A stretch of 64,000 nucleotides of DNA from Curtobacterium sp. S6 (GTDB lineage Bacteria; Actinomycetota; Actinomycetes; Actinomycetales; Micrococcaceae). How positions within the stretch are numbered: the first letter of the stretch is position 1; the number at the start of each line of letters is the position of its first letter. Below are positions 20,716 through 23,147 of this stretch, one piece after another. The position numbers and the translations under genes are program-made. Where the stretch lies: contig NZ_JHEL01000015.1 of assembly GCF_000710345.2 (NCBI RefSeq), positions 62,001 to 126,000 on the forward strand, in the 5' to 3' direction. Under the pieces are notes generated by a model that saw nothing but the letters and a program-made list of their open reading frames with translations, did not search any database and was not told the DNA's origin.

Positions 20716-20809
20716 AATTGCCGCCAGGAAGCACTATTCTTAATAGACGGATCACGGACGGTTTCCCTGGCCGCCGTAGCGTCCCCGCCCCTGGGAAGAG
20801 GAGATGACC

Positions 20810-21208
20810 ATGCCACTGTCCGAACATGAGCAGAAGTTGTTGGACCAACTCGAGCAGCAGCTCAACGCCGAGGACCCCACTTTTGTGCATTCCATGGACT
20901 CCGAATCGAGCTCTTCCCCCCGGAATCGCAGTGGTCTCTCCGTGCGGCACTTGGTGCTCGGTATCGTCATCGCCGTTCTGGGGTTGGCCGGCGTCCTCGT
21001 GGGCGTGGCCTCCAAACTCATCATCGTGGGCGTCCTCGGGTTCGTGATCATGGGCCTCGGGGTGTACATCGCAACCCTCCGCAGCACCTCCCGGAAGGGC
21101 CGTAAGAAGTCTTCCGGATCGGGAGGCTCGCAGCATTCCCCGAGCTCGGGGTCATCTTTCATGCAGCGGCTCGAGAAGAAATGGGAGGAGCGGGACGGAC
21201 GGGGCTAG
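20810..21208 (+). CDS. DUF3040 small membrane protein
   Basis: 132 residues. It opens with MPLSEHEQKLLDQLEQQLNAEDP, the DUF3040 hallmark, then has two membrane helices (about 47-90) and a basic, Ser/Gly-rich tail. ATG 20810 was chosen over 20804 because GAGGAG abuts 20804, leaving no spacer. Function unknown. In actinobacteria this family usually stands just upstream of mraZ, as here (M. tuberculosis Rv2169c), which suggests an envelope role. A strong terminator follows, so it is not part of the mraZ transcript. Confidence 0.82.
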   Translation: MPLSEHEQKLLDQLEQQLNAEDPTFVHSMDSESSSSPRNRSGLSVRHLVLGIVIAVLGLAGVLVGVASKLIIVGVLGFVIMGLGVYIATLRSTSRKGRKKSSGSGGSQHSPSSGSSFMQRLEKKWEERDGRG

Positions 21209-21259
21209 TCCTCCACGAACCTCCCCACTTTCCTCCCCGTAGGCCCCTCATCGGCCACA

Positions 21260-21295
21260 AGGGTCGGCACCGAACATCGGTGCCGGCCCTTTTTC
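21260..21295 (+). terminator. Rho-independent terminator of DUF3040 gene
   Basis: AGGGTCGGCACCGA (21260-21273) pairs with TCGGTGCCGGCCCT (21277-21290), one G-U pair, then TTTTTCT. It insulates the dcw cluster from upstream transcription. Confidence 0.9.
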
Positions 21296-21383
21296 TATGC
21301 CCTGCGGGCCTTCTGGGCCGGAATCCGGCATTTCCCTCCACCACGTCAGATCCCTGCAATGGCGGGGTTTTTGGCTCGTGGCA

Positions 21384-21448
21384 TGGAGCATTTTGGCAAG
21401 CAATGGGGGAAAACTGTTGCGTGTGGAGGGAAGTGGAGTAAAGTGGTG
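21384..21448 (+). promoter_or_regulatory. Phased TGG box array: candidate MraZ operator
   Basis: TGGAG 21384, TGGCA 21394, TGGGG 21404, (CTGTT 21414), TGGAG 21424, TGGAG 21434, TGGTG 21444: six of seven consecutive 10-bp steps start with TGG. MraZ in E. coli binds three TGGGN repeats at the same 10-bp period, and a TTGCGT-16-TAAAGT promoter (21417-21444) is buried in the array, so autorepression of the dcw cluster is the natural reading. The rest of the 329-bp gap holds the upstream terminator and a leader of about 85 bases to the mraZ ATG. Confidence 0.75.
21417..21444 (+). promoter_or_regulatory. Putative mraZ (dcw) promoter
   Basis: TTGCGT (21417-21422), 16 bp, TAAAGT (21439-21444), overlapping the last TGG boxes. 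The transcript would have a leader of roughly 85 nt. A second, weaker candidate is TGTAAT at 21514-21519. Confidence 0.5.
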
Positions 21449-21537
21449 GACGCGGGAGCGGTAAGGGTGGTTCCTTACTCTCCTGCGGCATTCGACCTAC
21501 GGAGTGCACGCAATGTAATCAGGGGAGGCGGTGGCGG

Positions 21538-21969
21538 ATGTTCCTCGGAACGTACTCGCCTCGCCTCGATGACAAGGGGCGGCTCATCTTGCCAGCCAAG
21601 TTCCGGGACGAACTCTCGGAGGGCTTGGTGTTGACCAGGGGCCAGGAGCGCTGCCTATACGTCTTCAGCGAGACGGAATTTGGCCGGGTGCATGAACAGA
21701 TGCGCCAGGCTCCGATTTCGTCGAAGCAAGCCCGCGACTACATTCGCGTGTTCCTCTCGGGTGCGTCGGATGAGGTGCCCGATAAGCAAGGGCGGGTCAC
21801 CATTCCTTCGTCATTGAGGGAATACGCGGGACTCGAGAAAGAGCTTGCCGTGATCGGCGCCGGTACCCGGGCCGAGATTTGGGATGCGGAAGCCTGGAAC
21901 GAGTACCTGCGTGAAAAGGAATCGGAATTTTCGGAAACCGATGAAGAGGTGATCCCGGGGCTGATGTGA
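21538..21969 (+). CDS. mraZ: Transcriptional regulator MraZ
   Basis: 143 residues, two SpoVT/AbrB-like repeats: [26 protein letters not shown] and the second copy [24 protein letters not shown], each with the DxKGR core. It forms ring oligomers that bind phased repeats in its own promoter; a matching array lies 90-150 bp upstream. First gene of the dcw cluster. A 185-bp gap to rsmH follows. Confidence 0.96.
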
Positions 21970-22154
21970 CCTCTGGTGCGTGATCTCCAGCCGACGATGC
22001 GGAATCGTCCTGGCTCAACTTCCCCTGAGCCAGGCCGTATGAGGGCCGACATCGTTTGGATGGGGATCAGGCGCCAGAGTTCTTGTCGTATGGGGCGCTT
22101 GAAACATGGGCAATGATTCGGGATGGACAGGCACGAGGAGAACGGAGGCCTTTG

Positions 22155-23147
22155 ATGGACGCAAAGACCTCACCCGACGGACGCCCGGCGCGTGACCGCC
22201 ATGTGCCCGTTCTGCTGGAGCGGTGCATTGGCTTGCTGGAGCCGGCTTTGGTCGGGGATCACCCCGTCGTCATCGACGCCACTTTGGGCATGGGCGGGCA
22301 CACCGAATACCTGTTGGAGCGTTTTCCGTCCCTGACCGTGATCGGCATTGACCGGGACCCCCAGGCGCACGAACTGGCGGGGGAGCGACTCGCGCGCTTC
22401 GGCGACCGTTTTATTCCTGAGCGCGCCGTGTACGACGAAATCCCCCAGATCGTCCGGGCCCACGGCCTCGCCGGCGTGCAGGGCGTCCTGTTCGACCTCG
22501 GCGTCTCCTCCCTCCAGCTCGACGAACGAGAGCGCGGATTCGCCTATTCCTTCGACGCCCCGCTGGACATGCGCATGAATTCCGACGATGAGGTCACGGC
22601 CGAAGACATCGTTAACGAATATGACGTAGACCATCTTCGCAGGATCCTTCGCGACTGGGGCGAAGAAAAATTCGCCGGCCGCATTGCTCAAGCTTTAGTT
22701 GAGGTTCGTCAGGATCACCGGATTGTCAGGACCGGCGAGCTCGTGGAGATCCTGAAGCGGGTCATTCCCGCCGCGGCGCAACGCAATTCCGGGCATCCGG
22801 CCAAGAGAACCTTCCAGGCCCTCCGTATTGAAGTTAATCATGAACTTGAAGCGTTGGAGTCGGCGATTCCCGGCGCCCTGAATTCTCTTAGCCTCGGGGG
22901 CCGTGTCGTAGCCATGAGCTATCACTCACTTGAGGACAAAATTGTGAAGCGTGGGATGACGGCCCTCTCGGTTTCCAAGGCTCCCAAAGGTTTTCCAGTC
23001 GAGTTGGAAGAACATCGGCCCGAAGTCAAGATCTTGACACGCGGGGCCGAGACGCCAACCGACGAAGAAATTGACAGTAATCCACGCGCGGCATCGGCAA
23101 GATTGCGTGCCGCGGAAAGAATCCGCGAATCTAGGACGGCTTCATGA
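22155..23147 (+). CDS. rsmH: 16S rRNA (cytosine(1402)-N4)-methyltransferase
   Basis: 330 residues. The SAM-binding [18 protein letters not shown] and catalytic-region [29 protein letters not shown] motifs are those of RsmH (MraW), as is [11 protein letters not shown]. It N4-methylates C1402 in the ribosomal decoding centre. ATG 22155 was chosen for its GGAGG site 7-8 bp upstream; the open frame to 22056 has no family similarity. Its last four bases overlap ftsL. Confidence 0.95.

Follow-up and report, generated by a model that had tools for sequence, protein, structure and literature searches.

Phased TGG boxes over the mraZ promoter of Curtobacterium sp. S6: a putative MraZ autorepression site with relatives across actinobacteria

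The mraZ gene of Curtobacterium sp. S6 is preceded by a run of TGG triplets at steps of 10 base pairs (bp). We analyzed this run within a stretch of 64,000 nucleotides of contig NZ_JHEL01000015.1, referred to as the window, whose first letter is position 1 of all coordinates given here. Very probably, the run contains an ordinary autorepression site of the regulator MraZ, composed of three to four boxes laid over the promoter, and the TGGs further upstream are probably a coincidence. Judged by comparison with 178 relatives, the boxes at 21424, 21434 and 21444 most likely constitute the putative mraZ operator that is conserved in actinobacteria (Table 1).

The run had been noticed in an earlier sequence-only reading, and all of its positions were recovered: TGG starts at 21384, 21394, 21404, 21424, 21434 and 21444, and CTG occupies 21414. 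On either strand of the window, TGG fills six of seven positions 10 bp apart in this array alone. Same-strand entries with four or five of seven are shifted readings of the same array, and at steps of 6-9 and 11-15 bp no site with at least five of seven TGGs was found in the window. The upstream TGGs stand in the contexts ATGGAG, TTGGCA and ATGGGG, those of the core in GTGGAG, GTGGAG and GTGGTG.

For the comparison, up to 500 bases 5' of mraZ were taken from 32 relatives of the same genus, 95 of the family (31 other genera), 25 of the order (other families) and 26 of the class (other orders). The 32 comprise every match obtained within the genus except our own genome (of 35 genomes, 33 matched), and the 95 are the part of 270 other-genus genomes that was best-scoring or hand-picked, covering all 31 other genera. 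Order and class loci are the best 25 of 51 and the best 26 of 52 matches, respectively, and hence these two sets lean to closer MraZ proteins; since the relatives share descent, the counts are not independent events. Excluded were two duplicates of our own locus (L001, L002) and two loci with fewer than 150 bases upstream (L205, L264). A further 80 loci, which overlap the sampled ones, served as a check only (79/80) and stand outside the 178. Each locus was anchored at its best match to GTGGRGTANNGTGG, where offset 0 denotes the T of the motif's last TGG (21444 in the window), and slots are named by their offset. The anchor motif includes slots -10 and 0, so that TGG there is not independent evidence; slot -20 is independent.

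The slots of 21424, 21434 and 21444 carry TGG in 135, 178 and 178 of the 178 loci, the last two defining the anchor. Between slots -20 and +20, off-register offsets mostly show TGG in fewer than 10% of loci, the maximum being 23% at offset -3 in the class. At the independent slot -20, a G directly precedes the TGG in 64 of 65 family cases. Conservation of the 10-bp register among relatives, which the sequence-only reading had proposed to test, thus holds for these three boxes and fails for those at 21384, 21394 and 21404.

The boxes are superimposed on a promoter. In the family, 80 of 95 loci have TTGAC starting at offset -27, as do 9 of 25 order and 15 of 26 class loci; together with TAAAGT at offset -5 (again 80 of 95 in the family) it describes a family promoter with a 16-base spacer. 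The promoter TTGCGT-16-TAAAGT proposed for our species is present and occupies exactly these -35 and -10 offsets. A consensus promoter scanner reported no promoter in 21150-21560; for its first hexamer it requires more matching bases than TTGCGT offers, and the promoter call rests on the comparison with relatives. The CTG at 21414 had been interpreted as a missing box that splits one six-box operator into 3+3. The CTG itself is correct, the split is not upheld: this slot runs into the -35 hexamer, and the gap need not be a lost box.

According to the comparison, the conserved extension of the array lies downstream, at the slot of 21454, and not upstream. TGG fills slot +10 in 0 of 32 genus, 11 of 95 family, 7 of 25 order and 23 of 26 class loci, and NRGAG occurs there in 82 of the 95 family loci compared with 0-6 at nine offsets nearby. 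A fit to NRGNG at each of the slots -20, -10, 0 and +10 is seen in 7/32 genus, 73/95 family, 17/25 order and 23/26 class loci, a count made without an off-register control. In the other orders of the class, the site presents itself as a putative four-box array at -20, -10, 0 and +10. Slot +20 holds TGG in 7 of 32, 51 of 95, 5 of 25 and 2 of 26 loci, respectively.

The cognate regulator is encoded at the locus. Its protein matches PF02381 twice, R15 and R86 are invariant among the 15 MraZ sequences compared, and structure comparison found the MraZ fold, including PDB entries 9sz7 and 9r4j. The site itself offers at least three TGG(G/A)-type boxes in direct orientation, spaced by exactly 10 bp (21424, 21434, 21444, followed by a degenerate GGGAG at 21454) and lies directly 5' of mraZ at the head of its cluster, with the mraZ ATG 94 bases past the last core TGG. 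The cluster continues from mraZ to rsmH and a penicillin-binding transpeptidase, with further division and cell-wall genes.

Boxes, register, placement relative to the conserved promoter elements, conservation and MraZ identity come from the present comparison; binding by MraZ, contact with its ring and repression are most likely by analogy with other bacteria. A ring-shaped MraZ oligomer would bind the direct GTGGRG repeats at their exact 10-bp spacing. As 10 bp correspond to about one helical turn, neighbouring subunits of the ring could read boxes that follow one another along a single face of the helix. The array spans the region from just past the -35 hexamer, across the -10 hexamer, up to about the inferred transcription start near 21451; since the boxes cover the promoter, bound MraZ would block RNA polymerase and thereby dampen transcription of mraZ and of the genes that follow. 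When the own genome was searched for three phased boxes, allowing at most two mismatches, one match was perfect, namely this site, four had a single mismatch, and all others had two. A regulon beyond mraZ was considered and rejected: the totals of 33 forward and 63 reverse matches are lower than those of a reversed control pattern (48 and 81), so that the remaining matches look like chance. A site with four phased TGGs (L238) lies inside a predicted open reading frame of 320 amino acids, on its opposite strand, and was discarded. With this site as the only perfect three-box match, the regulon at this stringency would be the cluster itself.

Table 1. Features of the mraZ locus and its upstream region (window coordinates).
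Feature	Position	Strand	Remarks
Three in-register TGGs, probably outside the operator	21384..21406	+	Slots filled in 1, 5 and 8 of 178 loci
-35 hexamer TTGCGT	21417..21422	+	Offset -27 to -22
Putative MraZ box 1, GTGGAG	21423..21428	+	Slot -20; TGG in 29/32 genus, 65/95 family, 19/25 order, 22/26 class; outside the anchor motif
Putative MraZ box 2, GTGGAG, in the -35/-10 spacer	21433..21438	+	Slot -10; TGG in 178/178; anchor motif, not independent
-10 hexamer TAAAGT, overlaps box 3	21439..21444	+	TAAAGT in 32/32 genus, 80/95 family; partly set by the anchor
Putative MraZ box 3, GTGGTG	21443..21448	+	Slot 0; TGG in 178/178; anchor motif
Possible MraZ box 4, degenerate GGGAG	21454..21458	+	Slot +10, just past the inferred transcription start
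mraZ (regulator)	21538..21969	+	Head of the division/cell-wall gene cluster
rsmH (mraW), gene after mraZ	22056..23147	+	Pfam Methyltransf_5, 1.5e-105

Upstream of the core, TGG was counted in the genus, family, order and class loci as follows: 0/32, 0/95, 0/25 and 1/26 at slot -60 (21384), 0/32, 0/95, 3/25 and 2/26 at slot -50 (21394), 3/32, 2/95, 1/25 and 2/26 at slot -40 (21404), and 0/32, 2/95, 1/25 and 8/26 at slot -30 (21414). No in-register upstream TGG exists in 155 of the 178 loci, a single one in 21, two in 2, and three in none. The sequence-only reading had regarded the run as a longer, six-box operator and had named absence of the register from close relatives beforehand as a ground for refuting it. 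Precisely this absence was observed, all three upstream slots being filled in 0 of 178 relatives, and the six-box operator was dropped as the leading interpretation for lack of conservation. What remains of that interpretation is a putative operator at the mraZ promoter with boxes and period of the E. coli type, three of the boxes overlapping the promoter.

Since relatives lack most of the three upstream boxes, these are a probable coincidence, most likely a run that arose by chance where TGG is frequent: the TGG density amounts to 0.040 per base in 21209-21537 versus 0.018 window-wide, and further TGGs stand out of register at 21360, 21372, 21379, 21447 and 21468. In the nearest species, whose MraZ is 99% identical, TGG occupies the 21404 slot only, and those of 21384 and 21394 are lacking. 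Other near relatives have at the 21404 slot one further TGG, one TGA, and one TGG that is one base off. For 21404 alone, the nearest species may have recently gained a weak box. Slot -30 is a separate matter: the class loci with TGG there are L246, L247, L248, L249, L250, L255, L261 and L266, and in seven of these eight it directly precedes the TTG of the -35 region (e.g., TGGTTGAC, TGGTTGCA). For those lineages of other orders, we read it as a putative one-box upstream extension.

An explanation that we consider unlikely is a six-box 3+3 operator special to this species, whose recent upstream extension would serve as a second site or a longer path around the ring. The upstream TGGs stand in exact register with the core, and such a constellation is rare by chance. 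Dinucleotide shuffling (20,000 trials, register fixed by the promoter boxes at 21424, 21434 and 21444) placed TGG in three or more of the four upstream slots in 0 of 20,000 trials for 21209-21417, in 0.01% for 21300-21417 and in 0.05% for 21350-21417. Set against this are the 178 relatives, none of which fills the three upstream slots and two of which fill two, and in particular the species with 99% identical MraZ, which lacks both outer boxes. A TGG at the 21404 slot is kept in the two nearest species, with another one base off, and 8 of 26 loci of other orders possess an extra in-register TGG just upstream of or touching the -35 hexamer; yet within our own genus neither the 21384 nor the 21394 slot holds TGG in any of the 32 loci, the upstream TGG seen most often is off the 10-bp register (offset -32, 28% of 32), and when our species is aligned with its four closest relatives, dense conservation begins only at the -35 hexamer. 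By their form, too, the upstream copies deviate: 21394 reads TGGCA instead of TGGRG, and none of the three is preceded by the G that is almost invariable at family slot -20. This last argument is suggestive only, since the G is often absent at weak slots (it precedes 1 of 11 family TGGs at +10 and 34 of 51 at +20) and belongs to the anchor motif in two of the slots; its absence upstream is not decisive. We therefore give little credence to a second three-box array recently grown in phase upstream of the -35 hexamer, which would bring six of seven boxes to one side of the DNA. If it were real, one ring could contact the array with most of its subunits or two rings could bind, resulting in tighter autorepression than in the sister species.

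Hardly credible is the opposite explanation, that the phased TGGs are not MraZ sites at all and only mirror the core promoter plus the local base composition. The -10 hexamer shares bases with box 3 and the -35 hexamer is followed by box 1, and thus part of their conservation may be the promoter's own. A promoter, however, presumably needs neither the GTGGAG in its spacer nor the GAG and TGG kept in the family at +10 and +20, and the same type of box with the same period precedes E. coli mraZ, where the site is located downstream of the -10 hexamer, according to PMC7761207.

The autorepression site of three to four boxes, with coincidental TGGs upstream, has its own difficulties, and the following observations weigh against it. 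The rarity of the upstream run in shuffles (0 to 0.05%) we ascribe to chance plus selection; the coincidence of six TGGs is unusual, yet it was selected post hoc from a much larger text. Taken as a set, the same-genus upstream stretch is not devoid of conservation: it holds 6-7 bits per 10 bp, largely A-rich, a value computed with an anchor that stood 10 bp, or one box, before its proper place in 20 of 258 loci; the slot counts were made after re-anchoring. The -35 hexamer is poor within the genus, with TTGAC in 1 and TTG in 7 of 32 loci. Furthermore, NRGAG at slot +10 occurs in 4 of 32 same-genus loci, equal to offset +12 (4 of 32), with TGG in none. As slot +10 is not enriched in the genus, box 4 is uncertain here, and the operator of this genus may consist of three boxes.

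Three side observations concern the surroundings of the site. In the inferred 5' leader, 21461-21478 form a dyad GTAAGG-GTGGTT-CCTTAC, and AAGGGTGGTTCCTTA in this region is identical in the own species and the four nearest relatives. ATAAGG/CCTTAT, changed in a matching way in both arms, occurs in one of these relatives, and the other three are mismatched at one pair. The dyad is possibly the site of a second regulator or a leader hairpin. In L015-L022 of the same genus, about 10-30 bases past the last core box, AACAACACTGGTGTAGTT or a form with ACACTGATGT makes an imperfect dyad in the same place. It encloses the +20 TGG in five of the seven same-genus loci that have one, and in this genus the +20 TGG may therefore not be a MraZ box. 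On the far side of the array, a strong terminator-like hairpin with a T run (21259-21291) follows an open reading frame of the DUF3040 type (20804-21208) and may insulate the mraZ promoter against upstream transcription.

The comparison separates the selected part of a striking repeat from a part that is probably not under selection. It draws a picture of the actinobacterial mraZ operator as a set of 10-bp slots over the -35 hexamer, the -10 hexamer and about the transcription start, with four slots in the other orders. Loci of the Micrococcaceae have a degenerate fourth slot and frequently show TGG at a fifth one, located 20 bp beyond the last core box (51 of 95). This slot pattern leads to simple predictions on how a ring-shaped repressor copes with gained and lost boxes.

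Eraso et al. are said to have described the E. coli mraZ operator in 2014 as a set of TGGGN boxes. The likeness to E. coli pointed out by the sequence-only reading is confirmed: in strain K-12, TGGGA, TGGGG and TGGGA follow one another exactly 10 bp apart, and the first of them stands 43 bases 5' of mraZ. Both operators consist of direct TGG boxes at this step, and E. coli has GGGTG in the next slot. They differ in the fourth base of the box, G in E. coli and mostly A here (GTGGAG), and in placement, the E. coli site being downstream of the -10 hexamer according to PMC7761207 whereas ours covers the -35/-10 region. By entry titles and fold match alone, the complex of Mycoplasma genitalium MraZ with a promoter of four boxes (PDB 9sz7, 9r4j) is a comparable four-box case. 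Among the papers listed by our searches of open-access literature, which leaves most subscription papers outside, none was seen to deal with these MraZ-DNA structures or with a four-slot operator shared by actinobacteria, and we do not claim that either is unpublished. According to PMC7761207, the dcw promoter of Burkholderia cenocepacia bears four repeats of 7 nucleotides with spacers of 3 nucleotides, overlapping the transcription start. These repeats share the 10-bp period with the boxes described here; their array is located downstream of the -10 hexamer, whereas ours starts right behind the -35 hexamer.
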